Source: Thiohalomonas denitrificans
GTDB taxonomy: Bacteria; Pseudomonadota; Gammaproteobacteria; Thiohalomonadales; Thiohalomonadaceae
Direction of reading: 5' to 3'
Assembly (NCBI GenBank): GCA_020725115.1
Contig: DYFR01000014.1
Coordinates: forward strand, 23,466-87,465
Length of the DNA stretch: 64,000 nt
A model generated the notes under the pieces. The model searched no databases, had not been told where the DNA came from, and saw only the letters and a list, made by a program, of their open reading frames with translations. How positions within the stretch are numbered: the stretch's first letter is position 1; each line of letters opens with the position of its first letter. The translations under genes were made by a program, and so were the position numbers. This document shows positions 6,695 to 49,461 of the stretch, piece by piece.

Positions 6695-6806
6695 GGAGGT
6701 AAATTCAAAATCCAGGATTCAAGATTGAAAACTCGCGTGGCCGCGTTCATGCTGTTTTTGAATTTTGAATTTTGAATTTTGAATTTTGAATTTTGAATTT
6801 TGAATT
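6695..6806. repeat. heptamer-arm inverted repeat, copy 1 (TTTTGAA type)
   Basis: The right arm is seven perfect tandem copies of TTTTGAA (6756-6804). The left arm (about 6697-6732) has degenerate inverted units such as GATTCAA and GATTGAA. Between them lies a core ending in TTCATGCTGTTTT, also seen at 13.2 and 49.4 kb. It lies between two divergent genes and reaches to within about 15 bases of the downstream start codon. Confidence 0.8.
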
Positions 6807-6818
6807 TGAGTGCAAGCC

Positions 6819-7499
6819 ATGCTCCTCGCCATCATCGGCCTCCTGATCCTCGCCCTGACCCTGCTGCCTGCGCTGTGGGCGAAGGCCGTGCTGCGCCGTT
6901 ACAGCGGTGTGCGCAGCGATTATCCCGGCAGCGGCGGCGAGCTGGCGCGCCATCTGCTCGATCGCCACGGCCTGCAACAGGTGGCGGTGGAAACCACGGA
7001 GCAGGGCGACCATTATGACCCGCTGGCCAAGGTGGTGCGGCTGGCGCCGGAGCATTACAACGGCCGTTCGCTTACCGCCGTGACGGTGGCGGCCCATGAA
7101 GTGGGTCATGCGCTGCAGGATCATGCCGGCTATGCGCCGCTGGCCTGGCGCACACGCCTGGTGCGCCTGGCCCAGGGGGCGGAGAAGGCCGGTGCGGTAC
7201 TGATGCTGGCGCTGCCGGTGCTCACCGTGCTGACGCGCGCACCGTCTGCCGGTCTGGTGGTGCTGCTGGCCGGTCTGGCCAGTTTCGGTACCGCCATCCT
7301 GGTGCACCTGGTCACCCTGCCGGTGGAACTGGACGCCAGTTACCGTCGCGCCCTGCCGCTGCTGGCCTCAGGCTATCTGCCGCGCAACGACCTGCGCCCG
7401 GCACGGCAGATCCTCACCGCCTGCGCCTTCACCTACGTCGCTGCCTCGCTGTTCAGCGTGCTCAACCTGTGGCGCTGGCTGGCAATCCTGCGGCGCTGA
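6819..7499 (+). CDS. YugP-like membrane zinc metallopeptidase
   Basis: A 226-residue neutral zinc metallopeptidase of the YugP type. It has an N-terminal membrane segment (MLLAIIGLLILALTLLPALW), the zinc-binding HEVGH motif at residues 93-97 in TVAAHEVGHALQDHAGY, and further hydrophobic stretches after residue 120. The segment DHYDPLAKVVRLAPEHYNGRS before the motif is typical of the family. The substrate is unknown; the active site is expected at the membrane. ATG 6819 is preferred over the in-frame GTG at 6810, which lies at the edge of the heptamer repeat. No strong ribosome binding site is visible because the repeat occupies the leader. Confidence 0.88.
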   Translation: MLLAIIGLLILALTLLPALWAKAVLRRYSGVRSDYPGSGGELARHLLDRHGLQQVAVETTEQGDHYDPLAKVVRLAPEHYNGRSLTAVTVAAHEVGHALQDHAGYAPLAWRTRLVRLAQGAEKAGAVLMLALPVLTVLTRAPSAGLVVLLAGLASFGTAILVHLVTLPVELDASYRRALPLLASGYLPRNDLRPARQILTACAFTYVAASLFSVLNLWRWLAILRR

Positions 7500-7514
7500 T
7501 CTCTCGATGGTTTT

Positions 7515-7587
7515 GCAGGAGCCCACTCCGTGGGCGAACACGGCGCATGGCCTGGGCGTCTGTTCGCCGAGGGGACCCGGCTCCTGC
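7515..7587. repeat. imperfect palindrome with GCAGGAGCC / GGCTCCTGC ends
   Basis: Outer arms GCAGGAGCC (7515-7523) and GGCTCCTGC (7579-7587) pair, and inner GGCGAACA (7533-7540) pairs with TGTTCGCC (7561-7568). It fills the gap between the convergent YugP-like and TPR genes. The shape is like REP elements of other gammaproteobacteria and may act as a bidirectional 3'-end hairpin. Confidence 0.6.
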
Positions 7588-7597
7588 GACGGAAGAA

Positions 7598-7915
7598 TTA
7601 CGCGCGGGGCGTTTGCAGTCGCTTGAGAAACACCCGCATCTCCTTCGCCGCCTGGATATCGCCCTTTTCCTGCGCAATGCGTATGCCTTCCTCGTAGGCG
7701 GCGACGGCCTCGTCGTTGCGGTCGGCCGCCGCCAGGGCCTTGCCGAGCAGCTTGTGGCTGGCGGAATGGGCTGGGTCGTGACGCAGGGCGGCGCGCAGAT
7801 GGTCGACGGCACGGTCGTAGTCATCCTGCTTGAGATACGCGCTGCCGAGGCCGAAGCGCAACATCAGGTTGTCCTGGCCGGCGGCGAGCAGTTTTTCCAG
7901 TACGGTGATGTCCAT
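7598..7915 (-). CDS. tetratricopeptide-repeat protein
   Basis: A 105-residue soluble protein with two to three TPR helix pairs (GLGSAYLKQDDYDRAVDHLR, GKALAAADRNDEAVAAYEEG, AQEKGDIQAAKEMRVFLKRL). It is probably a small protein-protein interaction module with unknown partner. The start is ATG 7915, giving MDITVLEKLL; an upstream extension to 8053 is open but low in coding character and overlaps a repeat. It is convergent with the YugP-like gene and lies downstream of the methyltransferase on the same strand, with a repeat between them. Confidence 0.8.
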   Translation of the reverse strand: MDITVLEKLLAAGQDNLMLRFGLGSAYLKQDDYDRAVDHLRAALRHDPAHSASHKLLGKALAAADRNDEAVAAYEEGIRIAQEKGDIQAAKEMRVFLKRLQTPRA

Positions 7916-7975
7916 GTGCAGGAGATGGGGCCTGTCGGTTGCCGCGGCAAGGTACGGCAAGACCCTATTGGCGCG

Positions 7976-8082
7976 GAGACGCAGAGTTGGCGGGGCGGGT
8001 GCATCATCGGCCCCCAACGATGCCGCCCAGCCGCACGCACCAGGTGTTCGCAAAAATAATCTCCGCGTCTCTGCGACAGAGG
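7976..8082. repeat. octamer-arm palindrome copy (GCAGAGACGCAGAG family)
   Basis: The left end GCGGAGACGCAGAG (about 7976-7989) is inverted relative to the right end CTCCGCGTCTCTGCG (about 8062-8076). The ends are separated by about 70 bp. The right end lies within ten bases of the methyltransferase stop codon. This is the most diverged of the five family members in the window. Confidence 0.65.
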
Positions 8083-8086
8083 ATTT

Positions 8087-8665
8087 TCAAACCACCGGCC
8101 GCTGCGCCACCAGATACGCCTCGTTGCGCAGGCCGCGCGCGGTGTCGCCCAGCGTGTCCTCCTCGCGGTAGGCGATGACGTCCAGTTCCGCGAACAGGTG
8201 CAGCAGTTCGTTGCACGCCAGACGGAAGGCGGGATTGCCGGGGCCGTGTTCGCTCACCTGGGCGCGGGTCCAGGTCTGGTAGTAGAGCAGGCCGCCGGGC
8301 TTGAGGGCGGCGGCGATGGCCGGGCACAGGCGGCGCTCCAGATAGCGGCCGACGACGATGACGTTGAAGTGATGTTCCGGCAGGCCGTGCAGCGTCAGGT
8401 CGCGCACCTCGGCGGCGAGCGGCAGGTCGTGGCCGCGGGCGTGGGCGTTGAGCTTGTCGATGGCAACGGGGGAGATATCCCAGGCCACGGTGTCGAGGCC
8501 GCGCGCGGCGAGCAGCAGGGCATTGGCGCCGAGGCCGCAGGCGAGGTCCAGTGCCGTGCCGTGGGACGGCAGCAGGTGGGCATAGTCGCTCAGTACCTGC
8601 ACGGGGCGGCCATCGCCCACCTGGGCGTCACGATAGCGGGTGTTCCACTTGTCGGCGTCGGACAC
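8087..8665 (-). CDS. class I SAM-dependent methyltransferase (TehB-like)
   Basis: A 192-residue Rossmann methyltransferase. Motif I is ALDLACGLGANALLLAARG, motif II is TVAWDISPVAIDKL, and FNVIVVGRYLERRL and LKPGGLLYYQTWTR are the motif IV/VI segments. The N-terminal DKWNTRYRDA is characteristic of small TehB/thiopurine-type enzymes. The substrate cannot be told from sequence. The start is taken as GTG 8665, directly at the edge of a GTTTCGA repeat; the longer ORF upstream merely translates the repeat. It lies downstream of trkH on the same strand. Confidence 0.87.
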   Translation of the reverse strand: MSDADKWNTRYRDAQVGDGRPVQVLSDYAHLLPSHGTALDLACGLGANALLLAARGLDTVAWDISPVAIDKLNAHARGHDLPLAAEVRDLTLHGLPEHHFNVIVVGRYLERRLCPAIAAALKPGGLLYYQTWTRAQVSEHGPGNPAFRLACNELLHLFAELDVIAYREEDTLGDTARGLRNEAYLVAQRPVV

Positions 8666-8671
8666 TTTTTT

Positions 8672-8743
8672 AGTTTCGAGTTTCGAGTTTCGAGTTTCGA
8701 GTTTCGAGTTGAGGTTATTCGAAACCCGCAACTCGAAACGGCC
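8672..8743. repeat. heptamer-arm inverted repeat, copy 2 (GTTTCGA type)
   Basis: Five tandem GTTTCGA-type units (8672-8710) are followed by an inverted arm with TCGAAAC units (8721-8740). The spacer is very short and the core seen in the other copies is missing. It fills the gap between the trkH stop and the methyltransferase start and so forms part of the methyltransferase leader. Confidence 0.8.
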
Positions 8744-8748
8744 GTTTT

Positions 8749-10203
8749 CTATTTGCGCCAGAACGTCGGTGTGAACAGCACCAGCAGGGTAAAGATTTCC
8801 AGACGGCCAAGCAGCATGGCGACCATCAGCACCCATTTGGCGGCCGCCGGGATATCGGCATAGTTGGCACCCACATCACCCAGGCCGGGGCCGAGATTGT
8901 TGAGGCAGGCGGCGACGGCGGAGAAGGCGGTGACCTGATCCAGGCCGAACATCATCAACAGCAACATCATGAGCGTGAACACACCGACGTAGGCGGCAAA
9001 GAAACCCCACACCGCATCGATGACCCTGTCGGGCAGACACTTGTTGCCCACCTTGATGGGAATGACCGCATTGGGATGAATCAGTCGGCCGATCTCGCGC
9101 AGGCCCTGCTTCACCAGCAGCACGAAACGGATCACCTTCATGCCGCCGGCAGTGGAGTTGGCACAGCCGCCGATGAAGCTGATGAACAGCAGCATTACCG
9201 GCAGAAAGCCGGGCCAGGCATGGTATTCGGTGGTGGTGAAGCCGGTGGTGGTACCGATGGATACCGCCTGGAACATGCCGTGCAGCAGGGCATCGGCAGG
9301 GTCGCGGTAGGTGCCGCTCACATACAGGTAGGCACTGGTGATCAGCGCGGCGGAGCCGAGGATGATGGCGTAGGTGCGCGATTCGGTGTCGCGCAGATAG
9401 GGCCGTGGGCTGCGGCCGCGCCAGGCGTAGAAGTGCAGGGTGAAATTGATGCCGGCGAGAAACATGAACACGATGGCGCTCAGTTCGATCAGCGCATTGC
9501 CGTGGTAATAGCCCATGCTGGCATCGTGGGTGGAGAAGCCGCCGATGGCCACGGTGGAGAAGCTGTGGCCGATGGCATCGAACGGGGTCATGCCGGCACT
9601 CCAGTAGGCCAGGGCGCAGGCGATGGTCAGGCTGAGGTAGATGTACCACAGCGTCTTGGCGGTTTCGGTGATGCGCGGCGTGAGTTTGCTGTCCTTCATC
9701 GGCCCCGGCATCTCGGCGCGATAGAGCTGCATGCCGCCGATGCCGAGCATGGGCAGGATCGCCACCGCCAGCACGATGATGCCCATGCCGCCCAGCCATT
9801 GCAGTTGCTGGCGGTAGTAGAGGATGGAGCGCGGCAGGGCGTCGAGGCCGGTGATTACCGTGGCGCCGGTGGTGGTGAGGCCGGACATGGATTCGAATAC
9901 GGCATCGGTTACAGATAGGCCGGGATGCTCCGACAGCGCCAGCGGCAGGGCGCCGAACACGCCCAGTACGGTCCAGAACAGCACCACCACCGCAAAGCCG
10001 TCGCGCAGGCGCAGTTCGCGGCGCAGCCTGCACACCGGCAGCCACAGCACGATGCCGGTGATCAGGGTGACGGCGAAGGCGAGCAGAAAGGTGTTGTGCG
10101 CGCCATCGCCGTAACCGAGAGAAACCAGCAGCGGCGGCAAGAGGGTGCTGCTGAAGATCATCAGCAGCAGGCCGACCACACGCTGGATAACGGTGAATTG
10201 CAT
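8749..10203 (-). CDS. trkH: Trk potassium uptake system membrane subunit
   Basis: TrkH is the K+-translocating pore of the Trk system and works with the cytoplasmic regulator TrkA encoded just upstream. The 484-residue protein is membrane-spanning throughout and shows the SKT pore-loop signatures: SMSGLTTTGATVITGLD, HSFSTVAIGGFSTHDAS, SIGTTTGFTTTEY and FIGGCANSTAGGMKVIRF. The last is the characteristic fourth P-loop. The start ATG 10203 is five bases after the trkA stop, so trkAH form one unit. Confidence 0.96.
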   Translation of the reverse strand: MQFTVIQRVVGLLLMIFSSTLLPPLLVSLGYGDGAHNTFLLAFAVTLITGIVLWLPVCRLRRELRLRDGFAVVVLFWTVLGVFGALPLALSEHPGLSVTDAVFESMSGLTTTGATVITGLDALPRSILYYRQQLQWLGGMGIIVLAVAILPMLGIGGMQLYRAEMPGPMKDSKLTPRITETAKTLWYIYLSLTIACALAYWSAGMTPFDAIGHSFSTVAIGGFSTHDASMGYYHGNALIELSAIVFMFLAGINFTLHFYAWRGRSPRPYLRDTESRTYAIILGSAALITSAYLYVSGTYRDPADALLHGMFQAVSIGTTTGFTTTEYHAWPGFLPVMLLFISFIGGCANSTAGGMKVIRFVLLVKQGLREIGRLIHPNAVIPIKVGNKCLPDRVIDAVWGFFAAYVGVFTLMMLLLMMFGLDQVTAFSAVAACLNNLGPGLGDVGANYADIPAAAKWVLMVAMLLGRLEIFTLLVLFTPTFWRK

Positions 10204-10208
10204 ACGGG

Positions 10209-11582
10209 TTACAGAAAGGTCACGCCGACCTGGAACAGGCGTTCCACTTCGGGAATGCGCTTCTTGTCCACCACGAACAGGATGACATGATCTTCGGCTT
10301 CGATGGTGGTGTTGTGATGGGCGATGAGTACTTCGCTGCCGCGCACGATGGCGCCGATGGTGGTGCCGTGGGGCAGCTTGATGTCCTCGATGGCGCGGCC
10401 GACGACCTTGGATGATTTTTTGTCGCCGTGGGCCACCGCCTCGATGGCCTCGGCGGCACCACGGCGCAGCGAGTGTACCGCCGCGACGTCGCCGCGGCGC
10501 ACATGGGTGAGCAACGAACCGATGGTGGCCTGCTGCGGTGAAATGGCCACGTCGATTTCGCCGCTCTCCACCAGGTCGACGTAGGCGGCACGGTTGATCA
10601 GCGTCATCACCTTGCGCGCACCCAGGCGCTTGGCCAGCATCGAGGACAGGATGTTCGCCTCGTCGTCGTTGGTCAGTGCGCAGAAGATATCGGTCTCCTC
10701 GATATTTTCCTCCAGCAGCAGATCGCCATCAGCGGCATCGCCCTGCAGCACGATGGTGCGCGTCAACTCTTCCGACAGCGCCTTGGTGCGTGCCGTGTTG
10801 TGATCGATGAGCTTGACCTGATAATCGTTTTCCAGCGCGGCGGCGAGGCGTTTGCCGATATTGCCGCCACCGGCGATGATCACGCGCCGCGCCGGCTTTT
10901 CCTGCCGGCGCAGTTCGCTCATCACCGCGCGGATGTCCTTCTTGGCGGCAATGAAGAACACCTCGTCGTCGGCCTCGATGACGGTGGTGCCTTCCGGAAT
11001 GATGGGCCGGTTGCGGCGGTAGATGGCGGCGACACGGGTGTCGACGCCGGGCATGTGCTGACGCAGTTTCTGCAGTTCCTGTCCTACCAGCGGGCCGCCA
11101 TAGTAGGCCTTGACCGCCACCAGCTGTACCTTGCCCTCGGCGAAATTGAGCACCTGCAAGGCGCCGGGGTATTCGATCAGGCGATGGATGTAGTCGGTGA
11201 CCAGCTGCTCGGGGCTGATCAGCACGTCGACCGGGATGGCATCGGGACCGAACAGCTGCGGATGCACCAGATATTCGAGGGCACGCACACGGGCGATCTT
11301 GGTGGGGGTGCGGAACAGGGAATAGGCCACCTGGCAGGCCACCATGTTGGTTTCGTCGGAGTTGGTGACGGCGATCAGCATGTCGGCGTCCTCGGCGCCG
11401 GCACGCAGCAGCACCTCCGGATGCGAGGCCTGCCCTACCACGGTGCGCAGGTCGAGTCGATCCTGCAGCGCCTGCAGCCGTTGCGGCTCGGTATCGACCA
11501 GGGTGATATCGTTGGCTTCGCTGGCGAGGTTGTTGGCGAGGGAGGAACCCACCTGGCCGGCGCCGAGGATGATGATCTTCAT
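10209..11582 (-). CDS. trkA: Trk system potassium uptake regulator
   Basis: TrkA is the peripheral NAD(H)/ATP-binding gating ring of the Trk channel. The 457-residue protein has two RCK modules. The first begins [20 protein letters not shown]; the second begins [20 protein letters not shown] near residue 230. Each Rossmann fold is followed by a TrkA-C domain ([40 protein letters not shown]). ATG 11582 is used because the first Rossmann motif starts there; upstream residues in the longer frame come from a repeat. It lies downstream of ntrX, separated by a heptamer-arm repeat. Confidence 0.97.
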
Positions 11583-11634
11583 GGCCGAGTATCCGCTGTG
11601 CGTTGGGCGCGCATTGTAGTTGAGGCTTAGAAGC

Positions 11635-11760
11635 AGATACAAGTTACAAGTGGCAAGATACAAGGGGAGGAGCGCGCTGTGCGCACGGCTATTTGGATTC
11701 AAAACAGCACGAGCGCAGCGAGTTCACTCCCTTGTATCTTTCCTCTTTGCTCTTGTATCT
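11635..11760. repeat. heptamer-arm inverted repeat, copy 3 (GATACAA type)
   Basis: The left arm has four heptamers of the GATACAA/GTTACAA type (11635-11665) and the right arm has four in inverse orientation (11731-11760). The core of about 60 bp between them, read on the minus strand, closely matches the core of copy 4 (AACTCGCTGCGCTC, then TGCTGTTTTGAAT). The copy is therefore inverted relative to copy 4. Its right end is 4 bases from the ntrX stop codon. Confidence 0.85.
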
Positions 11761-11763
11761 ACC

Positions 11764-13125
11764 CTAACCTCGGCTCTTGGCATCAATACCCAAGGATTTC
11801 AGTTTCCGGTACAGATGGGTGCGTTCGATGCCGGAATGCTGGGCTACCTGGTTGATGTTGCCGTCGAGGCGGGCCAGCAGTTCGATAAAGTAGTTGCGCT
11901 CGAACTTCTCCCGCGCCTCGCGTAGCGGCAGGTCGGCGTCCGTTGTCAGCGCGGCCGGCGTCATGCTGCGCGCGGCGCCCAGCGCCGCATCCACCTCGCC
12001 GGCATCGATTTCGCTGCTGCTGCCGACGATGAGCAGACGCTGCACCAGATTGCGCAGTTCACGCACATTGCCGGGCCAGGGATAGTTGCGCAGACGGTTT
12101 TGTGCCGCCACGGTGAAGGTGCGGTAGGGCAGTTTCTCCTGGCTGACGAAATGCTCGATGTAAAAGGTGATCAGGTCGGTGACATCCTCGCTGTGCTCAC
12201 GCAGTGGCGGCACGCCGAGCGGCACGACATTGAGATGGTAGTAGAGGTCGTTGCGGAAGCTGCCGTCGCGCACGCGCTGCGCCAGGTCGTGATGGGTGGC
12301 GGCGATGACGCGCACGTCCACCTTGACCGGCTCGGTGCCGCCGACGCGGTGATAGCTGCGCGTCTCCAGCGCACCCAGCAGGCGTGCCTGGGTGGCGCTG
12401 TCCATGTCGCCGATGTCGTCCAGGAACAGTGTGCCGCCGTTGGCCTGCTCCAGCAGACCATAGTGCACCTTGTCGTCTTCTTCGCTGCCGAACAGCTCCA
12501 CCATCGCATTGTCGCCCAGCAGCGAGGCGACGCCGACATCGACGAAGGGGCCGTCGCGGCGCGGGCTGCAGGCGTGCAGGTAGCGCGCCATCACGCCCTT
12601 GCCGCTGCCGGATTCGCCGCTGATCAGTACCGTGGTGTCGTGCTGGGCAACGCGCTTGATCTGTTCGCGCAGCTGCTGCATCACGCTGCTGCGGCCGATG
12701 GGTTCGCCGACGGGCTGCGCCAGCCGTTTCAGCCCCACCACTTCGCGATGCAGGTTGTAGGCCTCCAGCGCCCGTTTCACGGTGGTCAGCAACTTGGCCA
12801 GTGACAGCGGTTTCTCGATGAAGTCGTAGGCCCCGAGGCGGGTGGCCTCCACGGCGGTTTCCACCGTGCCGTGGCCCGACATCATGATCACGGGGGCGGT
12901 GAGCGGGCCCTCCTCGCTCCACTCCTTGAGCAGGGAGATGCCATCGGTATCCGGCATCCAGATGTCCAGCAAGACCAGATCGGGCCGGCGCGCCTTGCGC
13001 GCCTTGCGCGCGCTGGCGGCATTTTCCGCCATGTCCACCTCGTAGCCTTCGTCGCGCAGGATGTCCTGCAGCAACGAACGGATGTCCGGCTCGTCGTCCA
13101 CTACCAGGATGTAGCCGTGCGCCAT
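11764..13125 (-). CDS. ntrX: NtrX-type response regulator of the NtrC family, lacking GAFTGA
   Basis: A 453-residue response regulator paired with NtrY. The N-terminal receiver has ILVVDDEPDIRSLLQD, the phosphorylatable Asp in DLVLLDIWMPDTDG, and YDFIEKPLSL. The AAA+ domain has a Walker A GESGSGKG (usual Glu replaced by Gly), Walker B GGTLFLDDIGDMD and SFRNDLYYHLNVVPLGVPPL. The loop that normally carries GAFTGA, used to contact sigma-54, reads ELFGSEEDDKVHYGLLEQA and lacks the motif. The C-terminus has a Fis-type HTH (INQVAQHSGIERTHLYRKL). It probably acts as a sigma-54-independent regulator in redox, nitrogen or envelope control, as suggested for NtrX elsewhere. Confidence 0.92.
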   Translation of the reverse strand: MAHGYILVVDDEPDIRSLLQDILRDEGYEVDMAENAASARKARKARRPDLVLLDIWMPDTDGISLLKEWSEEGPLTAPVIMMSGHGTVETAVEATRLGAYDFIEKPLSLAKLLTTVKRALEAYNLHREVVGLKRLAQPVGEPIGRSSVMQQLREQIKRVAQHDTTVLISGESGSGKGVMARYLHACSPRRDGPFVDVGVASLLGDNAMVELFGSEEDDKVHYGLLEQANGGTLFLDDIGDMDSATQARLLGALETRSYHRVGGTEPVKVDVRVIAATHHDLAQRVRDGSFRNDLYYHLNVVPLGVPPLREHSEDVTDLITFYIEHFVSQEKLPYRTFTVAAQNRLRNYPWPGNVRELRNLVQRLLIVGSSSEIDAGEVDAALGAARSMTPAALTTDADLPLREAREKFERNYFIELLARLDGNINQVAQHSGIERTHLYRKLKSLGIDAKSRG

Positions 13126-13147
13126 GGTTTTGAATCCTCTGTGTGTA

Positions 13148-13316
13148 TCAGGGCCGGGGTCTAGAAATCAGATACAAGATACAAGTGACAAGATACAAGG
13201 GAATGAACTCGCTGCGCTCATGCTGTTTTGAATTCAAATGGCCGTGCGCGCCGCGCACACCTTCCCTTGTATCTTTCCTCTTCACTCTTGTATCTGATTT
13301 CTAGTTCCTGGCCCCT
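13148..13316. repeat. heptamer-arm inverted repeat, copy 4 (GATACAA type, longest)
   Basis: The outer arms CTAGAAATCAGATACAAG (13161-13178) and its inverse (13285-13302) extend through flanking GGGCC/GGCCC bases. Each arm carries four heptamers of the GATACAA type. The core (about 13199-13262) includes GAACTCGCTGCGCTCATG and TGCTGTTTTGAATTCAAA. The right arm runs into ntrY, whose last codons and TGA stop (13282-13284) are made of repeat sequence. Confidence 0.88.
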
Positions 13317-15489
13317 CATCCCGAGCCTTCACCGGCAAGCGAATGATAATGCACGCGCCCCCTTCGGGCAGGTTCTCCACCCAAATCATGCCGCCGTGCT
13401 CTTCCGTGATCTTCTTGACGATGGCCAGCCCCAGGCCGGTGCCCTTGGGTTTGCTGGTGACGTAGGGCTCGAACAGGTTGGTCAGCAGTTCTTCGGGGAT
13501 GCCGGGGCCATCATCGCATACGCCGAGTTCCACATAGCGGCAGCCCGTTTCCTCGGCGCAGCGGGTGGTGATGCGCAGGTGGGCGCCGTCATGACCGCAG
13601 GCCTCCAGCGCATTCTTGATCAGGTTGTGCAGAACCTGGCGCAGGCGGCCGGCATCGGCCTCGATGGCAGGGGTACGGGCATCCAGCTGCAGGTCGAAGC
13701 TGACCGGCCGGTGGTCGGTGCGATACAGATCGACCACCTCGCTGATGATGCGGTTCATGCCCACCATTTCCAGCCGCATCTGCGGCGGGCGGGCGTAGTC
13801 GGAGAAGGCCTTCACCATTTCCTTCAGGGCCTCCACCTGCTGCACGATGGTATGGGTGGAACGGTCCAGTACCTCGGCGTCCGCTGCCGGCATGGTGGTG
13901 AGGTACTTGTGACGCAGCCGTTCGGCGGAGAGCTGGATCGGGGTAAGCGGGTTCTTGATTTCGTGGGCCAGGCGCCGTGCCACCTCGCCCCAGGCGGCAT
14001 CGCGCTGGGCCTGGATCAGGGCGGTGATGTCGTCGAACACGATGACATGCCCGCCGCCGATCTGTTCGTTGCCCGGCAGCAGGGCGCCACGGCACATCAG
14101 CACCTGGCGACCCTTCGGGCCGAACAACACCAGTTCGGCGCGCCAGTCCGGCTCGGCCGGTGTCAGGTGCGGCAGCAGGGCCGCGACGAACTGATCCAGC
14201 ACCGGGTGGCGCCCCGGCAGTTCCTGCAGTGGCCGGCCTACCACATCGTCCAGTTCGGCACCGAGGATATGGCCGGCGGCGGCATTGACCGTGTGCAGCA
14301 CGCCGTCACCGTCCAGGGTGAGCACGCCGGAGGAAAGGCGGCCCAGCACCGCCTCCAGGTAGGTGCGCTGTTCCTCGGCCTGGCGCTGGCTGTGGCGTGC
14401 GGCCAGCTGGCTCTGGGCGATCTTGTAGGTCATTTCGTTGAAGGAGCGCACCAGAAAGCCCAGTTCGTCACGGCCGGGCAGGGGCAGACGCTTGTCATAA
14501 TCGCCCTCGGCTACCGCACGGGTGCCCTCGGCCAGGTCGCGGATCGGTGCCACCAGCCGCCGCGCCGAGAAAAAGGCGGCCCACACGGCGGTGAGCAGCG
14601 ACAGCAGCAGGATCAGCGACAGGGTGAGGGTGAAGCTGTATTTGAGCGGCTGGCGCAGGAAGGCCAGTTCCTTGTACTGGGAATAGGCCTCCTGCACGCT
14701 GTCGGCTAGCTGGCTGAGGCGTTCCGCCACCGGGAACAGGGCATGCAGCACGCGGGATTCGGCCCCCGGCTCCAGTGACGGCAGGGTGACGGCGACACGC
14801 ACGTGCATGCCGGCATCGCCCAGCGGTTCCAGGCGGGCGTAGTCCAGGCCCTGGCGCAGCTGCTGCAGCACCGCCTCGCTCGGCATGGCCGGGATGATGG
14901 CGCTGGGGTCCATGCTGGCACTGGCGATGGGGCGGCCGCGCAGGGTGAGCAGGGTCATCTCCGCCGCCTCGCTGTTCTGGCGCAGCTCATTCAGTTTCAG
15001 CGCCGCCGTGCCGTCCGGCACCGGCCCCAGTTCGCCGGCGGCCTGGCGCGTCTGGCGCAACAGTTCACGCAGGCGGCCGTCGAGGGAGGCGCGGCCCAGC
15101 TCCAGCGCATCTTCCAGTGACTTTTCCACCCGCAGGTCGAACCAGCTGTCGATGCCGCGGTGGAGGAACTGCAGCGAGAAGTAATACACCACCGACACCG
15201 GCGCCAGCGCCAGCAGCACGAACATCACGACCAGCCGCAGGGTCAGGCGCGAGCCCGGGGCATGTTCGCGGTACTGCTGCAGCAGGTGAACCAGGTTGCG
15301 CCCGATGAGGGCGAGCAGCAGCAGCAGGGCCAGGATGTTCACTGCCAGCAGCAAGGAATAGAGGCGGCCGAACAGGGCGGTGTTCTGGGTGGCGCCGCTC
15401 ATCAGGTAGAACGATGCCAGCAGCAGCACAAACAGCAGTGCCACCGGCCGCGGCCCGGAGGTGAGGCGCTTTAAGGCGTCAAGGAGCAT
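13282..15489 (-). CDS. ntrY: NtrY-type sensor histidine kinase
   Basis: A 735-residue membrane sensor kinase. The N-terminus has several membrane helices (PVALLFVLLLASFYL, SLLLAVNILALLLLLALIG, RLVVMFVLLALAPVSVVYYF), a periplasmic region with SLEDALELGRASLDGRL, another helix (FTLTLSLILLLSLLTAVWAA) and a HAMP segment. A PAS domain follows (LEAVLGRLSSGVLTLDGDGV). The kinase core has the H-box HEIKNPLTPIQLSAERL, and N/G boxes in LHNLIKNALEACG, CDDGPGIPEE and GTGLGLAIVKKI. ATG 15489 overlaps the end of the DUF4390 gene. The natural C-terminus is probably KARDEG; the last residues derive from the repeat. Confidence 0.95.
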   Translation of the reverse strand: MLLDALKRLTSGPRPVALLFVLLLASFYLMSGATQNTALFGRLYSLLLAVNILALLLLLALIGRNLVHLLQQYREHAPGSRLTLRLVVMFVLLALAPVSVVYYFSLQFLHRGIDSWFDLRVEKSLEDALELGRASLDGRLRELLRQTRQAAGELGPVPDGTAALKLNELRQNSEAAEMTLLTLRGRPIASASMDPSAIIPAMPSEAVLQQLRQGLDYARLEPLGDAGMHVRVAVTLPSLEPGAESRVLHALFPVAERLSQLADSVQEAYSQYKELAFLRQPLKYSFTLTLSLILLLSLLTAVWAAFFSARRLVAPIRDLAEGTRAVAEGDYDKRLPLPGRDELGFLVRSFNEMTYKIAQSQLAARHSQRQAEEQRTYLEAVLGRLSSGVLTLDGDGVLHTVNAAAGHILGAELDDVVGRPLQELPGRHPVLDQFVAALLPHLTPAEPDWRAELVLFGPKGRQVLMCRGALLPGNEQIGGGHVIVFDDITALIQAQRDAAWGEVARRLAHEIKNPLTPIQLSAERLRHKYLTTMPAADAEVLDRSTHTIVQQVEALKEMVKAFSDYARPPQMRLEMVGMNRIISEVVDLYRTDHRPVSFDLQLDARTPAIEADAGRLRQVLHNLIKNALEACGHDGAHLRITTRCAEETGCRYVELGVCDDGPGIPEELLTNLFEPYVTSKPKGTGLGLAIVKKITEEHGGMIWVENLPEGGACIIIRLPVKARDEGPGTRNQIQE

Positions 15490-16031: not shown

Positions 16032-16032
16032 G

Positions 16033-18286: not shown

Positions 18287-18303
18287 TCGGGTCTCAAAAT
18301 TGC

Positions 18304-18378
18304 CACCGCCGAGACGCAGAGGACGCAGAGAAAATCATTTGATCGGAAAATCTCTGCGTCCTCCGCGTCTCGGCGGTA
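18304..18378. repeat. octamer-arm palindrome copy between def and fmt
   Basis: 25-bp arms (18306-18330 and 18352-18376) pair with one mismatch around an A+T-rich loop of 21 bases. The arm reads CCGCCGAGACGCAGAGG and onward, built from units of about 8 bp like CGCAGAGA. It interrupts the def-fmt gene pair and could act as an intra-operon processing or termination hairpin. Confidence 0.85.
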
Positions 18379-18390
18379 GGAAGGGACTTT

Positions 18391-27582: not shown

Positions 27583-27666
27583 AAAACCCGCCGCAGAGAC
27601 GCGGAGGCGCAGAGGACCAGCAATCTTGTTCTCTGCGCCTCCGCGTCTCTGCGACATTCGGGTTTT
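27583..27666. repeat. octamer-arm palindrome copy after hemF
   Basis: The 23-bp arms at 27592-27614 and 27631-27653 are perfectly complementary around a 16-base loop. They begin with CGCAGAGACGCGGAGG, three units of about 8 bp. Outer AAAACCCG (27583-27590) and CGGGTTTT (27659-27666) extend the symmetry. It lies between hemF and the opposite-strand globin remnant. Confidence 0.88.
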
Positions 27667-40155: not shown

Positions 40156-40166
40156 GGTGGGTCGGG

Positions 40167-40892: not shown

Positions 40893-40967
40893 GGAGGTAT
40901 CGCGCAGCCAACGGCAAAGCGGCTATTGTAGTCGTAATTCCCGTTAGCCAGACAACAAATCACACCC

Positions 40968-43685: not shown

Positions 43686-44024
43686 GAGGTGGCGGAAGAG
43701 TCTCGGCAGATGCTTGCAGGGAAAGGTGGCGAAGATGACATCGATTCCACCCGGTGGGCGGCGGGAGTGCGGTATCCGGTTATCTATTGGCTGGATTAAT
43801 TGATGCCATTGAAATATTTAATGATGCAATTGGCGAATTGCAGAACTTTTCCCGAACCCCTCAGTCTCATTTGGTAAGCGCACTGCGCTTTCCCACTTTC
43901 TCTCTCCCTGGTGGGAACAACAGCCTGACTCCCTCCCCCTGAGTCAGGCGACTTGATCAGCCCCGGCCGCCTTCCCCCCTTCGGCGCCGGGGTTTTTTTT
44001 TGCCCGGTCATTTTGCAGGGCGCT
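43686..44024. other. 339-bp gap between polA and engB with two hairpins
   Basis: No convincing gene is present. Around 43780-43850 the sequence is A+T-rich and unlike its surroundings; a 62-codon open frame at 43754 is judged chance. CCTGACTC and GAGTCAGG (43924-43948) make a hairpin without a T-run. The terminator at 43961-44001 follows and could serve both convergent genes. Confidence 0.6.
43961..44001 (+). terminator. rho-independent terminator of polA
   Basis: CCCCGGCCGCC (43961-43971) pairs with GGCGCCGGGG (43983-43992) with one bulged base, followed by nine T. It is well placed to end polA transcription 275 bases after the stop codon, and faces engB coming from the other side. Confidence 0.85.
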
Positions 44025-44651
44025 TCAGGCGGGGTTGCAGGCCTCTTCCACGGCATAGCCGAACCACTGATCCAGCAGTGCCCGCGCCTCATCCACGCCC
44101 TGGCCGTCGTGGGATGAAAACAGTTGCACCGAGGCCTCCGGATAGTCAGCGAGAAAGCGTCTCACCTGCTGCAGGGCGGCAGAGGCCGGGCCACGCTTGA
44201 GCTTGTCCGCCTTGGTCAGCAACACGTGCACGGCCATGTTTTTATGGCGGCACCACTCCAGCATGATGCGATCAAACTCGGTGAGAGGGTGGCGCACGTC
44301 CATCAGCAGGATCAGGCCGCGCAGGCAGCTGCGGGTGTTGAAATACTGTTCCAGATTCTTGCGCCAGTGATCCCGCATCGCCGGCGGCACCTTGGCATAG
44401 CCATAGCCGGGCAGGTCGGCGAGGCGGCGCCCCTCGTCCAGTCCGAACAGATTGATCTGCTGGGTGCGCCCCGGTGTCTTGCTGGTGCGCGCCAGTCCCT
44501 TGATGGCGGTGATAATGTTCAGCGCGCTGGACTTGCCCGCATTGGAACGGCCCGCGAAGGCCACCTCGATGCCGCTGTCGCTGGGTAGCTGGCGCAGATG
44601 CTGAGCGCCGAGCAGGAACACGGCCTGACGATAATGATTGACGGGATTCAT
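44025..44651 (-). CDS. engB: ribosome biogenesis GTP-binding protein EngB/YsxC
   Basis: A 208-residue GTPase needed for 50S subunit assembly. G1 is [21 protein letters not shown]2 region [21 protein letters not shown]3 [11 protein letters not shown] and G4 [16 protein letters not shown] 44651 ([16 protein letters not shown]) is the family start; the longer frame upstream has no support. It is convergent with polA and divergent from the cytochrome genes. The polA-engB-cytochrome arrangement is also found, from memory, in Pseudomonas. Confidence 0.96.
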
Positions 44652-44846
44652 CAGTAAATGGCGTTGTTTTGTGGCATTTCGGGGGGTGGGGGCCGGTTTC
44701 CCGGCCGTTGCTGTTGACCGGCGATTCCCAATATTGGTATATAGCCCTGTCTTTCCGGATGGGTCGCGGAATATTGGCATTATTGTACGCCGACCCGCAT
44801 AATTAAACGCTTTCTTGATTGGAATTTAAGAGTAGGAGCCCGCTAA

Positions 44847-45155
44847 ATGAACAAGTTTCTGGTTGCATGCGCTGCCGGCGCAATGATGATCTCTGCTTCT
44901 GCCATGGCCGCCGACGGCAAGGCCATTTACGACAAGAGCTGCGTGGCCTGCCATGCTTCCGGCGCTGCCAATGCCCCCCGCCAGGGTGACAAGGCGGCAT
45001 GGGCTCCGCGCATCGCCAAGGGTATGGACGCGCTGTACAAGAGTGCCATGAACGGCGTTCCCGGTACCGCCATGCTGCCGAAGGGCACCTGTGCCGCCTG
45101 TACCGAGGCTGACCTGAAGGCCGCCACGGACTACATGGTTTCCCAAAGCAAGTAA
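44847..45155 (+). CDS. periplasmic monohaem cytochrome c5-like protein
   Basis: A 102-residue protein with a signal peptide (FLVACAAGAMMISASAMAAD) and a single haem-binding CVACH site in DKSCVACHASGAANAPRQGD. An additional CAAC pair (KGTCAACTEADLKAATDYM) is typical of cytochrome c5, where two Cys form a disulfide. The axial Met is probably in GTAMLP. It is an electron shuttle to terminal oxidases or reductases. It is followed after 21 bases by cytochrome c4. Confidence 0.94.
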   Translation: MNKFLVACAAGAMMISASAMAADGKAIYDKSCVACHASGAANAPRQGDKAAWAPRIAKGMDALYKSAMNGVPGTAMLPKGTCAACTEADLKAATDYMVSQSK

Positions 45156-45176
45156 CCATACAAATCGGGTAATTTA

Positions 45177-45776
45177 ATGAACAGACTAGTGATTGCAGTC
45201 CTGCTGCTGGGCACCCTCGGGTCGGCCCATGCGGTTGGCAGCGCCAGCGCGGGCCAGGGCAAGGCCGCGGTGTGCTCCGCCTGTCACGGTATGGACGGTA
45301 ACAGCGTCATGCCCCTTTGGCCGAGCCTGGCTGGTCAGCACGAACAGTTCATCAGCAAGCAGCTGATGGACTTCAAGTCCGGTGCGCGCAAGGACGACAC
45401 CATGACCGCCATGGCCGCGCCCCTGAGCGATCAGGATGTGGCCGACCTGGCCGCCTGGTATGCCAGCCAGAAGGCTACCATTGGTTCCGCCAATGCGGAG
45501 AAGGCGGCCCCGGGTGAGCAGCTGTATCGTGCCGGTGATGCCGGCAAGGGTCTGGCTGCCTGCATGGCGTGCCATGGCCCCAATGGTGCCGGCAACCCGG
45601 CGGCGAAGTTCCCCGCCCTGGGTGGCCAGCATGCGGCCTACACCGCGAAGACGCTGAAGGATTTTCGCGACGGCAAGCGCAGCAACGATCCGGCCAACAT
45701 GATGCGTGATGTGGCGGCCAAGATGAGCGATGCCCAGATCGAGGCAGTCGCCGAGTACATCGCCGGCCTGCACTAA
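45177..45776 (+). CDS. cc4: dihaem cytochrome c4
   Basis: A 199-residue protein with a signal peptide (VIAVLLLGTLGSAHAVG) and two homologous haem domains: CSACHGMDGNSVMPLWPSLA with Met ligand region MTAMAAPLSDQDVADLAAWY, and CMACHGPNGAGNPAAKFPAL with MMRDVAAKMSDAQIEAVAEY. Cytochrome c4 passes electrons from the bc1 complex or other donors to cbb3-type oxidases. A terminator follows, so c5-c4 make a two-gene unit. Confidence 0.96.
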   Translation: MNRLVIAVLLLGTLGSAHAVGSASAGQGKAAVCSACHGMDGNSVMPLWPSLAGQHEQFISKQLMDFKSGARKDDTMTAMAAPLSDQDVADLAAWYASQKATIGSANAEKAAPGEQLYRAGDAGKGLAACMACHGPNGAGNPAAKFPALGGQHAAYTAKTLKDFRDGKRSNDPANMMRDVAAKMSDAQIEAVAEYIAGLH

Positions 45777-45805
45777 ACCCGCAGCAGCAGCAGGGTGTAA
45801 ACAAG

Positions 45806-45841
45806 GAAGGGCGGCCCGATGGGCCGCCCTTCTTCATTTTT
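45806..45841 (+). terminator. rho-independent terminator after cytochrome c4
   Basis: The 12-bp perfect stem GAAGGGCGGCCC / GGGCCGCCCTTC closes a GAT loop and is followed by TTCATTTTT. It ends the c5-c4 transcript 30 bases after the stop codon, isolating it from resB. Confidence 0.9.
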
Positions 45842-45981
45842 GTCCAGGGATGGACGTATGCCGCGGGGGCCATGGATGGCCGGGAGCGGCGCTCAGCGTG
45901 ATATTATCGGCACCCTCGCTGCAACTTATGTCTTTTGTGCGGCTCAAACATCTCAACATAATCAATAGGGGCAGGGCTGAG

Positions 45982-48000
45982 TTGAACGACAAGACACTCC
46001 CCGTGCGAACACGGCGCGGTACTGGCGCCATTGCGCTCGAATTCCTCGGCTCGATGAATCTGGCCATTACCCTGCTGGTGGTGATTGCCATTGCTTCGGT
46101 CATTGGCACGGTGCTGCAGCAGAATGAGCCGTACACCAATTACGTGATGAAGTTCGGGCCGTTCTGGTTCGAGGTGTTCAAGGCGCTGGGGCTGTTCGAC
46201 ATCTACGGCGCCCCCTGGTTTCTGCTGCTGCTCGGTTTCCTGCTGATCTCCACCTCCATCTGTGTCTGGCGCAACACCCCGCACATCCTGCACGACATGC
46301 GTCAGTTCCGTCTGGATGTACAGGATAAGTCGCTGCAAAGTTTCCACCTCAAGTCGGAGTGGCATACGGCTTACGGTACCGGGGATGCGGCCATGCGTGC
46401 CGAGGCCTTGCTCGGTGCGCGCGGCTACCGCCTGCGCAAGCGCGAGCAGGAGGGTCATGTCACCGTGGCAGCGATGAGGGGCAGCGCCGGCCGTCTGGGT
46501 TACATCCTGTCCCACCTGTCGATTGTGGTGATCTGCCTGGGTGGCCTCATCGACGGCAATCTGCCGCTCAAGCTGCAGGAGCTGCGCGGCGAACTGCGCG
46601 CCGAGACACGCGACATTCCCGTCAGCGAGGTGCCGGCCGAGAGCATCCTGGGTACGGACAATCATTCATTCCGCGGCAGTATCAGCATTCCCGAGGGCGC
46701 CAGTGTCAACGTGGTCTATCTCCAGTTGCGTGACGGCTATCTGGTGCAACAGTTACCCTTTGCCATCGAGCTGGAACAATTCCGTGTCGAGCATTACCCC
46801 ACCGGTATGCCCAAATCGTTCGAGAGTGATCTGGTGATCCATGACGATGACCTGGAGCAGCCGTTGCGTCAGACCATCAAGGTCAATCATCCCCTGATCT
46901 ACAAGGGTTATGCCATCTATCAATCCAGTTTCGGTGATGGTGGTTCGGGGCTGAAGATGCGCGCGTGGTCGCTGGATCTGCCGCACCAGGAGCCGCTGGA
47001 GCTGGCCAGCAACGTCAACCGTTTCCTGCGCCTTAACACCACGCGTGGCGAGCGCACGCTGGAATTCACCGACTTCAAACTCTACAACATTTTCCCGGCG
47101 GACGAGGGCGACACCAGCGGCAAGAAGTTTCACAACTATGGTCCGAGCATGGTTTTCAAATTGCGCAATCCGGCCGGTGAGGCGCTGGAATATATCAACT
47201 ACATGTTGCCGGTGGAGTTGCAGGGGCGGCGCTTTTTCATGAGTGGCCTGCGCAGCACGCCGAGCGAGGAATATCGCTATCTGTATATCCCGTCCGATGA
47301 TGCCGGCACGCCGCAGCGTTTCATGCGGGTGCTGGCCGCGGCCCATGACGCGGCCCATGTGCGCCGTATCGTCGAGATGCAGATCGGCGATACATTGGGC
47401 GCCGATGCCGCCAGCCGGGATGTGCGCAACACGATGATCGATTCCATCAGCCGCCTGGTGGCACTGTTTGTGGAGCAGGGCATCGACGGGGTGGTCAAGC
47501 ATGCGGAAGCAAGTATTGCCGCTGAACAGCGACAGGATGCCATCAATTCTTATGTAAACGTGTTGCAGGGTGTACTGGGCGCCTTGTACATCGATGTACT
47601 GCGCGACGAAGGCGTCAATCTGGAGCAAGGCGTACGCGAGGAAGACAGCCTGTTCTTCGATGACACCTTGAATACCCTGTCGATGCTGGGGGCGTATGGT
47701 TCGCCGTTTTACCTGCAGTTGAGCGAGTTCGAGCATATCGAGGCCAGTGGTCTGCAAATTGCCCGCTCACCGGGCAAGGATATTGTTTATCTCGGATGCG
47801 CTATGCTGATGGTCGGCATATTCATGATGTTCTACATGCACCAGCGCCGTGTATGGGTGCGGCTGACGCAGTGTGACGGCGGGGCCAGATTGCTGCTCGC
47901 CGGCAGCGGTCATCGCAACCGTATGGAGTTCGAGCATGAATTCCACGCCTTGCAGGTGGAGCTGGAACAGGCGGTGCCGCGCAGCACCGATGTGACGTAA
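45982..48000 (+). CDS. resB: System II cytochrome c biogenesis protein ResB (CcsB)
   Basis: ResB works with CcsA to deliver and attach haem to apocytochromes c. The protein (about 672 aa) has paired N-terminal helices with NLAITLLVVIAIASVIGTVL, VFKALGLFDIYGAPWFLLLL and RNTPHILHDMRQ. A large periplasmic domain comes next (TIKVNHPLIYKGYAIYQSSF), then a C-terminal helix (DIVYLGCAMLMVGIFMMFYM). The start is taken as TTG 45982 because AGGGGCAGGG lies upstream and the family N-terminus is short before RRGTGAIALEFLGSMN; ATG 45928 is an alternative. It leads directly into ccsA. Confidence 0.9.
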   Translation: MNDKTLPVRTRRGTGAIALEFLGSMNLAITLLVVIAIASVIGTVLQQNEPYTNYVMKFGPFWFEVFKALGLFDIYGAPWFLLLLGFLLISTSICVWRNTPHILHDMRQFRLDVQDKSLQSFHLKSEWHTAYGTGDAAMRAEALLGARGYRLRKREQEGHVTVAAMRGSAGRLGYILSHLSIVVICLGGLIDGNLPLKLQELRGELRAETRDIPVSEVPAESILGTDNHSFRGSISIPEGASVNVVYLQLRDGYLVQQLPFAIELEQFRVEHYPTGMPKSFESDLVIHDDDLEQPLRQTIKVNHPLIYKGYAIYQSSFGDGGSGLKMRAWSLDLPHQEPLELASNVNRFLRLNTTRGERTLEFTDFKLYNIFPADEGDTSGKKFHNYGPSMVFKLRNPAGEALEYINYMLPVELQGRRFFMSGLRSTPSEEYRYLYIPSDDAGTPQRFMRVLAAAHDAAHVRRIVEMQIGDTLGADAASRDVRNTMIDSISRLVALFVEQGIDGVVKHAEASIAAEQRQDAINSYVNVLQGVLGALYIDVLRDEGVNLEQGVREEDSLFFDDTLNTLSMLGAYGSPFYLQLSEFEHIEASGLQIARSPGKDIVYLGCAMLMVGIFMMFYMHQRRVWVRLTQCDGGARLLLAGSGHRNRMEFEHEFHALQVELEQAVPRSTDVT

Positions 48001-48017
48001 TCAATGAGGTGGCAGTG

Positions 48018-49364
48018 ATGTCCGTATCAAGCGATACCCTGGAACAGATGTTCAAGCAGCCGTCGCTGCTCAAGCGACTTGGCTGGTTCGACTGGCTGTG
48101 GGCAGCATTGACGGCGGTCGGCACTATCTACGCCCACACCTATTACGTTGATCTGATGGATGCCTATGAAGTAGGCATTCTCTACGGTACGGCCATCAGT
48201 CTGATCTGGCTGGGCTGGGCATGGAAACCGACGCGGCAGTTGAGCCTGGTCATCGCCATGCTCAGCCTGTTTGCCATCGGGCTGTACGGCGATGATTTGG
48301 CGCGTGGTGAAACCGGTTTCTTCCTCAAGTTCCTGCTGAGCAGCCAGTCGGCGATCATGTGGATGAGCGCCCTCTATGTGATGGCCACCTTTGCCTATTT
48401 CTTCGGCATGTTCGCCCGCTCCGATTTCTCCAACCGCGTCGGCAGCGCGCTGACCTGGAGCGCCACCGCCATGGGCTTCACCGGCCTGATGGTGCGCTGG
48501 CGCGAGTCCTACCTGATCAGCCACGACGTGGGTCACATCCCGGTGAGCAACCTGTACGAGGTGTTCATCCTGTTTGCGGTGATCACCGCGCTGATGTACC
48601 TGTTCTACGAAGGGCGTTACAAGAATCGCCAGCTGGGCGGTTTCGTGCTCACCGTGATCTCCGCCGCGGTGGCCTTCCTGCTGTGGTATGCCTTTGCCCG
48701 TGGCGCTCATGAGATCCAGCCGCTGGTACCGGCACTGCAAAGCTACTGGATGAAGATTCATGTGCCGGCCAATTTCGTCGGTTACGGCGGCTTTGCCCTG
48801 GCGGCGATGGTGGCAATCCCCATGTTGGTGCGGATATATGCGGGTAGTCAGAATGCCAGGACGGTTTTTTGGGCGTCTTCGGGAGTAATGGGTGTAGTGG
48901 TTTTCGGTTATCAGCTCTTGAAAGCTGGAACAGCCACAGGCATTGATGTGTCTGTAGCGCTTAATGCCGTCCTGTCAGGCCTGATTGCTTTTGTTCTTGT
49001 TGCAGTAGCTCTGTGGGCACTATCACGCGAGCGGGTCCTAACAACATTGCCGCCCAATGAGTTAATTGAAGACGTGATGTACAAGGCCATCGCCCTGGGA
49101 TTCGCCTTCTTCACCGTGGCCACCGTGCTCGGTGCCATGTGGGCGGCGGAGGCCTGGGGTGGTTACTGGTCGTGGGATCCCAAGGAGACCTGGGCGCTGA
49201 TCGTCTGGCTGAACTATGCCGCCTGGCTGCATCTGCGCCTCGCCAAGGGCTGGCGCGGCCGCCCGCTGGCATGGTGGTCCATCGTCGGTCTGTTCATCAC
49301 CCTGTTCGCCTTCATCGGGGTGAACATGTTCCTGTCCGGGCTGCACTCCTACGGCTCGCTGTAA
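48018..49364 (+). CDS. ccsA: System II cytochrome c biogenesis protein CcsA
   Basis: CcsA is the haem-handling synthetase subunit. The 448-residue membrane protein carries the haem-binding tryptophan-rich motif EAWGGYWSWDPKETWALIVW and the expected His residues (SHDVGHIPVSNLYEV, KIHVPANFVGYGG, AAWLHLRLAKG). Residues about 277-352 contain two extra hydrophobic stretches and are coded in lower G+C DNA than the rest. ATG 48018 has GAGGTGG upstream, overlapping the end of resB region; the GTG at 48009 is less likely. It forms an operon with resB. Confidence 0.95.
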   Translation: MSVSSDTLEQMFKQPSLLKRLGWFDWLWAALTAVGTIYAHTYYVDLMDAYEVGILYGTAISLIWLGWAWKPTRQLSLVIAMLSLFAIGLYGDDLARGETGFFLKFLLSSQSAIMWMSALYVMATFAYFFGMFARSDFSNRVGSALTWSATAMGFTGLMVRWRESYLISHDVGHIPVSNLYEVFILFAVITALMYLFYEGRYKNRQLGGFVLTVISAAVAFLLWYAFARGAHEIQPLVPALQSYWMKIHVPANFVGYGGFALAAMVAIPMLVRIYAGSQNARTVFWASSGVMGVVVFGYQLLKAGTATGIDVSVALNAVLSGLIAFVLVAVALWALSRERVLTTLPPNELIEDVMYKAIALGFAFFTVATVLGAMWAAEAWGGYWSWDPKETWALIVWLNYAAWLHLRLAKGWRGRPLAWWSIVGLFITLFAFIGVNMFLSGLHSYGSL

Positions 49365-49369
49365 CGGCA

Positions 49370-49461
49370 GAGACAAGAGGAAAGAGCAAAGATACAAGGG
49401 AATGAGTGCGCTGTGCGCATGCTGTTTTCAACTTGTATCTTGTAACTTTTCTCTTGTATCT
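49370..49461. repeat. heptamer-arm inverted repeat, copy 5 (GATACAA type)
   Basis: The left arm has GAGACAA, GAGGAAA, GAGCAAA, GATACAA (about 49369-49396) and the right arm has four inverted units (49432-49461). The core has GGGAATGAGTGCGCTG and CATGCTGTTTT, shorter than in copies 3 and 4. It fills the gap between convergent ccsA and the cNMP gene; the TAG of the latter abuts the right arm. Confidence 0.85.

Follow-up and report, generated by a model that had tools for sequence, protein, structure and literature searches.

A 64,000-nucleotide stretch of DNA from Thiohalomonas denitrificans (GenBank assembly GCA_020725115.1, contig DYFR01000014.1, positions 23,466 to 87,465), hereafter the window, carries five repeats (W1 to W5) related to a dispersed family of intergenic palindromes of about 126 bp, in which two facing arms with AAG every 7 bp surround a core; W3 and W4 belong to it in full, W5 is a shortened member, and W1 and W2 are more distant and poor in core. 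When orthologous copies are compared between species, the 7-bp-phased AAG is the slow part of the palindrome. The family is tentatively interpreted as a DNA-level, non-autonomous repeat resembling the repetitive extragenic palindromes (REPs), and a putative DNA-binding protein would read its arms in steps of 7 bp; this is the reading that we consider the most likely, with a confidence somewhat below even.

Family layout and conservation of the phased arms

The genome (G000; 2.9 Mb in 40 contigs) was compared with four relatives in the genus (G001 to G004), several of the genomes being draft assemblies. A covariance model (R1), the E-values of which are rough, was built from 15 aligned copies, W3 and W4 among them. 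The family layout comprises two facing arms of four 7-bp units each and a core of about 68 bp. A typical copy consists of an A, the units GATACAA, GATACAA, GTGACAA and GATACAA, the core GGGAATGAACTCGCTGCGCTCRTGYTGTTTTGAATTCAAACnnCCGTGCGCGCAGCGCACTCMTCC, four TTGTATC-type units and a closing T; the ends are mostly AGATACAAG...CTTGTATCT, and GC is often present outside each of them.

The original prediction, made from the letters of the window alone, had named a genome-wide profile search as its check and a failure to find further copies with the core as the outcome that would count against it; that outcome did not occur. Exact copies of the core 11-mer CATGCTGTTTT are found at three places in the whole of G000, all inside the window, and a one-mismatch search followed by inspection identified further copies, also in the relatives. 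R1 matched 41 distinct places in G000 at E<=0.001, 34 of these with at least 55 bits, within 269 kb mostly chosen for holding copies. All five genus genomes have matches at E<=1 (126, 132, 139, 75 and 133 in G000 to G004, respectively); both strands of the palindrome are counted in these values and 150 of about 1100-2200 candidates were scored per genome, so that they are not copy numbers. Outside the genus, 4 of 15 genomes of the same family match at E<=1e-6, and in the class-wide search, with nine candidates scored per genome, 15 of 369 genomes match at E<=1e-8, two of them from the genus.

The commonest arm unit is GATACAA (269 of 704 units), followed in order by GTTACAA, GTGACAA, GAGGAAA, GATGCAA, GTTGCAA, GAGCAAA, GTGGCAA, GAGAAAA and GAGTAAA. 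In the 71 copies with a clean register (568 units), heptad positions 1, 6 and 7 are fixed at 99, 94 and 99%, respectively, and positions 2-5 are variable; the remaining 17 of the 88 copies were dropped from this count and from the arm-matching, pairing and neighbour-unit tests. The register filter requires three of the four units to start with G and end with A and so favours positions 1 and 7, and the 99% figures lean on it. Therefore, the comparison between species is the test that counts.

Eighteen orthologous comparisons were made, in which 12 G000 copies were set against G001, G002 and G004, with eight more at below 60% identity dropped and gaps above 260 bp excluded. Positions 1, 6 and 7 had changed in 15 of 413 cells as against 82 of 548 for positions 2-5 (Fisher p 2e-9), with 145 changes in 1153 positions of the core and 205 in 1371 of the 40-bp flanks. 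A strict set of 11 comparisons (at least 85% identity and gap-free arms) gave 4 of 228 for positions 1, 6 and 7 and 26 of 304 for the other letters (p 0.0005), with 59 of 738 in the core and 113 of 820 in the flanks, and G004 alone gave 2 of 144 and 19 of 192 (p 0.001); all these values come from 12 sites and from short-repeat alignments in which the aligner may shift the arms by whole units, which the strict run limits only partly. As the AAG letters change far less than the rest of the palindrome, a protein reading the arms in 7-bp steps is suggested.

Both arms of a copy share the motif type in 103 of the 106 distinct scored copies (88 CAAG/AAAG, 13 CGAG and 2 CTAG), a count from which four of 111 rows with too few typed motifs and one duplicate G001 place were left out. 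The agreement is also seen within G001, where five CAAG and five CGAG copies coexist.

Turnover between species and the alternative readings

The occupancy of orthologous sites is species-specific. The W3 site is occupied in G000, G001, G002 and G004 and not in G003, the core being in the opposite orientation in G001, and the W4 site, which is empty in G003, holds a CAAG type in G000, G002 and G004 and, in G001, a CGAG type whose core is partial. At the W2 site, which has none in G001, 5, 4 and 11 units are present in G000, G002 and G004, respectively, and at the W1 site seven TTTTGAA units in G000 stand against fourteen TTGAACC units with a matching left arm in G004. In G004 the L039:2924 copy no longer has its core, and seven GTGACAA units lie opposite six TTGCAAC-like units. 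Locus L124:2702 has a CAAG copy in G000, a CGAG copy with a flipped core in G001 and a 9-bp-unit repeat in G004, flipped cores having been found between species in two cases, and four different gap sequences are present at L129:15108 in four comparable genomes. The copies L130, L129:15108 and L124:15780 form a variant group with a mutual identity of 91-94%; L124:15780 is shared with G001, G002 and G004, and the L129:15108 copy was not found at its site in these three genomes. In addition, 40 clean gaps were listed when five G000 stretches were compared with the four relatives, several of them being G000 inserts of 8-, 9- and 10-bp-unit types that are missing from one to three relatives.

The MITE-like (miniature inverted-repeat transposable element) mobility that had been predicted is supported as regards dispersal, by the further core-bearing copies, the species-specific occupancy and the variant group, and not as regards target duplication. 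The arms do form terminal inverted repeats, as in a MITE. However, the longest direct word shared by the two flanks of 88 copies was 4.45, against 4.49 in shuffled pairings; with no target duplication, the family falls outside the MITE definition.

A search for the core in genome contigs gave 31 stretches, 21 of which are in two metagenome-assembled genomes of the genus; five of the remaining ten (L199, L201, L211, L222 and L223) were checked and had no R1 match, and the ten are taken as chance. Among 22 loci listed from the class-wide search, most carry AGATACAAG-type arms around unrelated loops, and L183 (genome G366, another family) has a core very similar to that of the present family between GAGTTTT-type arms. 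Arms and core are thus separable modules, and L183 suggests a modular exchange of the two.

The phased constraint, the lack of RNA- and slippage-type signatures described below, the differing occupancy between species and the dispersal of a single core together make a DNA-level REP-like repeat the simplest account that fits, and the palindrome is likely to spread as a small passenger element. The protein would read the phased AAG/CTT of the arms, some enzyme encoded elsewhere would copy or move the element as single-stranded or cruciform DNA, and the avoidance of divergent gaps would reflect selection against landing in promoters. Several observations weigh against this account. No transposase or binding protein for the element was found, Y1_Tnp (PF01797) being the only transposase family searched, and heptad arrays were present at none of the eight Y1-transposase loci examined out of 19 matches, with one weak 29-bit R1 match. 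None of the core-bearing copies at the sites compared gave a clean pair of empty and occupied states with a duplication. G002 alone gave a non-significant result in the strict set (2 of 84 against 7 of 112, p 0.30), and conversion among units already sharing AAG could in part explain the low divergence of these letters. Finally, at L129:2218 the element is present in G000 and G004 and a terminator-like hairpin takes its place in G001 and G002, which fits a role at transcript ends.

Such a role, which the original prediction had offered as a transcribed 3'-end structure, is a serious alternative that we nevertheless regard as doubtful: the element would be transcribed at the 3' ends of genes, would stop or protect transcripts in both directions, and could be replaced by unrelated hairpins. 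It is kept alive by L129:2218, where a terminator pattern scan flagged both the G001 and the G002 hairpin and nothing in G000, and by the proximity of the copies to stop codons, at a median of 3 bp in convergent gaps and of 7.5 bp from the upstream stop in tandem gaps. The 68 placeable copies include 20 in convergent, 44 in co-oriented and 4 in divergent gaps, as compared with 41, 156 and 45 of the other gaps of at least 30 bp in the same stretches (convergent versus divergent, p 0.0022), a count that relies on a simple gene-calling script, leaves 20 of the 88 copies unplaceable and treats orthologous copies from three genomes separately, although these are not fully independent. The folds are also very stable, with RNA energies of -65.9 kcal/mol for W4 (z -10.7) and -65.8 for W3 (z -8.3) and similar values for the opposite strand. 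Pairing, however, is not the conserved property of the arms. The same NNN is found across the arms in 10-11% of the copies for the middle units 2 and 3 as against 45-58% for units 1 and 4, mismatches on the sense strand comprise 28 G-U and 37 A-C cases (p 0.32) without a preference for G-U, and the core in tandem copies is sense in 14 and antisense in 19, without a preferred orientation. RNA pairing as the conserved property was rejected on the negative G-U/A-C test. Moreover, W1 lies between divergent gene starts, no T-run was seen after the full stems of W1-W5 (W5 read by eye), and an Rfam search of the window gave no match at the gathering score. The terminator pattern scan of positions 6000-14000, which cover W1-W4, identified small stems inside W1 and W3 and none at a full-stem end, with six in all against 4.9 expected from shuffles.

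A mutational by-product without function or mobility, with heptamer arrays arising by replication slippage and the facing arm by a switch of strands at the palindrome, appears unlikely. It would account for the agreement in type between the two arms and for the unit numbers that vary at W1 and W2. Passages of PMC4692102 report a surplus of heptamers in bacterial genomes and offer polymerase slippage as one possible cause. The heptamer slippage of the original prediction is indeed visible at the sites of W1 and W2 and in an ortholog without a core; the core-bearing copies taken together do not show it: neighbouring units are identical at 0.157 against 0.145 in column shuffles for the left arm and at 0.082 against 0.075 for the right, which indicates no overall homogenisation. 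In this test, which leaves out the CTAG-type arms, one of six genome-by-arm sets exceeded the shuffles (G002 left, 9 of 2000) and one was borderline (G004 right, 96 of 2000). A by-product would also leave unexplained why many places have a similar core of about 68 bp and why the AAG positions are conserved beyond the flanks. AAG at a 7-bp spacing that is nearly fixed while the bases between change faster, with no overall homogenisation of the units, argues for recognition rather than slippage.

Matching of the arms within copies was slightly above shuffles, the observed value being reached by 91 (G000), 359 (G004) and 11 (G002) of 5000 shuffles. Strict copying of one arm from the other by template-switch correction was considered for the core-bearing copies and dropped, the matching being barely above shuffles and the middle heptads unmatched.

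A true REP or bacterial interspersed mosaic element (BIME) system moved by a Y1 transposase of the REP-associated tyrosine transposase (RAYT) type, already weakened, is very improbable: palindromic intergenic repeats in dozens of copies without target duplication, Y1_Tnp genes in five of the five genus genomes (19 matches, five in G000) and a separate GTAG-headed palindrome adjoining several copies would suit it, but the element, at about 126 bp, is longer than the 20-40 bp of a REP palindrome and carries neither a GTAG nor a GTGG head, and this together with the eight Y1 loci devoid of heptad arrays places the family outside the REP/RAYT definition. The GTAG-headed palindrome (GTAGGGTGGATAAGCGCAGCGCATCCACC), which is like known REPs, or its end directly precedes the heptad copies at L044, L122, L125, L137 and L169.

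Copies in the window and facing arms of other unit lengths

The five repeats of the original prediction were all recovered at their places and all scored by R1 (Table 1), and the opposite orientation of the W3 and W4 cores was confirmed by the R1 strands. Arms of four to seven tandem heptads had been described; W3, W4 and W5 have four per arm, all imperfect, and perfect arrays were detected by Tandem Repeats Finder only in W1 (TTTTGAA, 7.4 copies) and W2 (AGTTTCG, 5.6 copies). The core sequence thought to be common to four copies is exact in W1, W4 and W5, has one mismatch in W3 (CGTGCTGTTTT) and is lacking in W2, which has no core; at up to one mismatch CATGCTGTTTT occurs at seven places in the window, against a mean of 0.84 and a maximum of 5 in shuffles.

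Table 1. Coordinates of the palindromic repeats and related features in the window
Feature	Position	Strand	Description
W1, degenerate member	6694..6812	+	Imperfect-heptad left arm at ~6702-6729; short core with CATGCTGTTTT; R1 26.2 bits; facing-arm scan
W1 right arm	~6757-6806		Seven perfect TTTTGAA units
W2, no core	8671..8745	.	GTTTCGA x5 (8672-8710) opposite a short inverse arm; R1 23.4 bits
W3, full member	11635..11760	-	Arms 11636-11663 and 11732-11759 (four heptads each); core 11664-11731; R1 137.0 bits
W4, full member	13162..13302	+	Arms 13171-13198 and 13267-13294; core 13199-13266; R1 135.7 bits for 13170-13295; palindrome extends into the flanks (CTAGAAATC/GATTTCTAG)
W5, shortened core	49369..49461	+	Core ~49398-49432; four heptads per arm; convergent genes; R1 55.2 bits
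8-bp-unit facing repeat, same design	27593..27652	.	GCAGAGACGCGGAGGCGCAGAG / CTCTGCGCCTCCGCGTCTCTGC; between co-oriented genes; facing-arm scan
143-bp stretch, 8-bp-type facing arms	7954..8096	.	GGAGACGCAGAG / CTCCGCGTCTCTGCG; cross-genome gap comparison

All copies had been placed in gaps at gene ends, which holds for W2, W3 and W4, located between co-oriented genes, and for W5, and not for W1, which is flanked by divergent gene starts (6650 on the minus strand; 6810 or 6819 on the plus strand). Pfam identified TraB/PrgY-like and zinc peptidase genes as the neighbours of W1, methyltransferase and trkH genes at W2, trkA and a sigma-54 response regulator at W3, the same regulator together with an NtrY-domain kinase at W4, and a cytochrome c assembly gene and a cNMP-binding protein gene at W5. 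The response regulator between W3 and W4 is presumably ntrX-like. The ntrY-like reading frame terminates within the right arm of W4 (13282-13300), so that W4 seems to supply its stop codon. Elsewhere in the window, about 480 bp at 4368-4846, absent from the corresponding position in G001 and G002, contain an open frame with a GGQ motif, which we take to be release-factor-like.

A sequence-agnostic scan for facing arms with a tandem period of 4-14 was performed on 832 kb, in which 400 kb of G001 and 50 kb of E. coli were combined with the window and with pieces of six further genomes, five of these chosen on account of an R1 hit. It identified 12 cases of period 7, 3 of period 8, 3 of period 9, 8 of period 10 and one of period 14 (twice 7), and none at periods 4, 5, 6, 11, 12 and 13. 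The twelve period-7 cases include three window copies (W1, W3 and W5; W2 and W4 were missed at the thresholds of the scan), L305, previously an R1 hit, and eight that were found blind. The controls gave 0 in Markov shuffles, 3 for mirror and 20 for parallel arms (six at period 7); GC-rich coding stretches with periods of 6, 9 and 12 were additionally picked up at a looser threshold but no longer at the stricter one. Genome G351 supplied seven of the period-10 and two of the period-8 cases, its seven 10-bp-unit facing repeats (CACGGAAANA) lying in 90 kb (L301, L303 and L304) beside 7-, 8- and 9-bp types, and the pieces of E. coli, G202, G366, G103 and G012 gave none. In G001 the gap at 7954-8096 measures 6 bp; G002 has 28 bp there against 164 bp.

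Border repeats were seen at two inserts without heptads. One of them, a 242-bp G000 insert at L129:11741-11984 with arms of 10-bp units (CCGCGAATGAACGCAAATACACGCGAATG), has the 11-bp direct repeat TTCATTCCTTG on either side, of which G001 has a single copy. The other, at L124:6854-7099, combines 8-bp-type arms with a GTAG-headed palindrome, and its far border repeats about 16 bp from the end of the upstream gene.

A broader and quite unlikely proposition is that facing tandem-armed palindromes with 7-, 8-, 9- and 10-bp units (CAAG-NNN, GACGCAGA, GACGCAAAG and CACGGAAANA) constitute one unrecognised class of interchangeable arrays in bacteria, which would occupy the gaps where genes end, pass from one gap to another, exchange the unit type of both arms simultaneously and be read by a common machinery in 7-10 bp steps.

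Comparison with known systems

The short tandemly repeated repetitive (STRR) sequences of cyanobacteria are heptamers and intergenic, like the family described here, but are direct repeats. Head-to-tail 7-bp units, as in STRR and other heptameric simple sequence repeats, are present here. A literature search by heptad unit sequences gave nothing relevant. The TAACTGA repeats of Beggiatoaceae are likewise intergenic heptamers but direct repeats, with one inverted case among 170 sets in passages of PMC4679880.

The REP/BIME systems with RAYT share the dispersed, intergenic and palindromic nature of the family, and the IS200/IS605 family makes no larger target duplications, according to passages of PMC2817692 and PMC3733652. 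As described in the same passages, they differ in a length of 20-40 bp, a GTAG or GTGG head and copies that flank their own transposase gene (Nunvar et al. 2010, PMC2817692; Di Nocera et al. 2013, PMC3733652), features not seen here where tested.

The nearest relatives in design are found in Geobacter metallireducens and Xanthomonas. Classes 1-3 of G. metallireducens, in the legends and passages of Aklujkar et al. (2009, PMC2700814), consist of three to five tandem 7-, 8- or 8/9-bp units, are multicopy and drawn in pairs on opposite strands, and have been proposed as sites for integration host factor (IHF) or HU. They differ from the present family in their unrelated unit sequences and a spacer of variable length, with no core named in the legends, and are reported as unique to that genome; the 49 GGGACCG elements of the same genome have four tandem units and are not said in these passages to face each other (PMC2700814).

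The GGGAATC heptameric repeats of Xanthomonas, as far as the passages of Rehm et al. (2015, PMC4692102) go, resemble the family in being heptads, mostly of four units, intergenic and rare in divergent gaps. Two arrays face each other in 70 cases in Xcc (186 arrays) and in 75 cases in Xac (183 arrays), and they occur mostly at the same genes in both species with large variation in length and sequence. In contrast to the CAAG units, which are not G-rich, they are G-rich and G-quadruplex forming, and are treated in those passages as G-quadruplex repeats rather than as one facing-arm element, with no shared core (PMC4692102).

Paired opposite-strand arrays that are multicopy and intergenic, the loose description that covers the Xanthomonas and G. 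metallireducens arrays, are also what is found here, and the kind is therefore not wholly new: in the passages of the two papers, facing tandem arms have already been partly described, as a kind without a name. Linking the 7-, 8-, 9- and 10-bp versions of one design could join these scattered Xanthomonas and Geobacter reports to unannotated intergenic repeats in other lineages.

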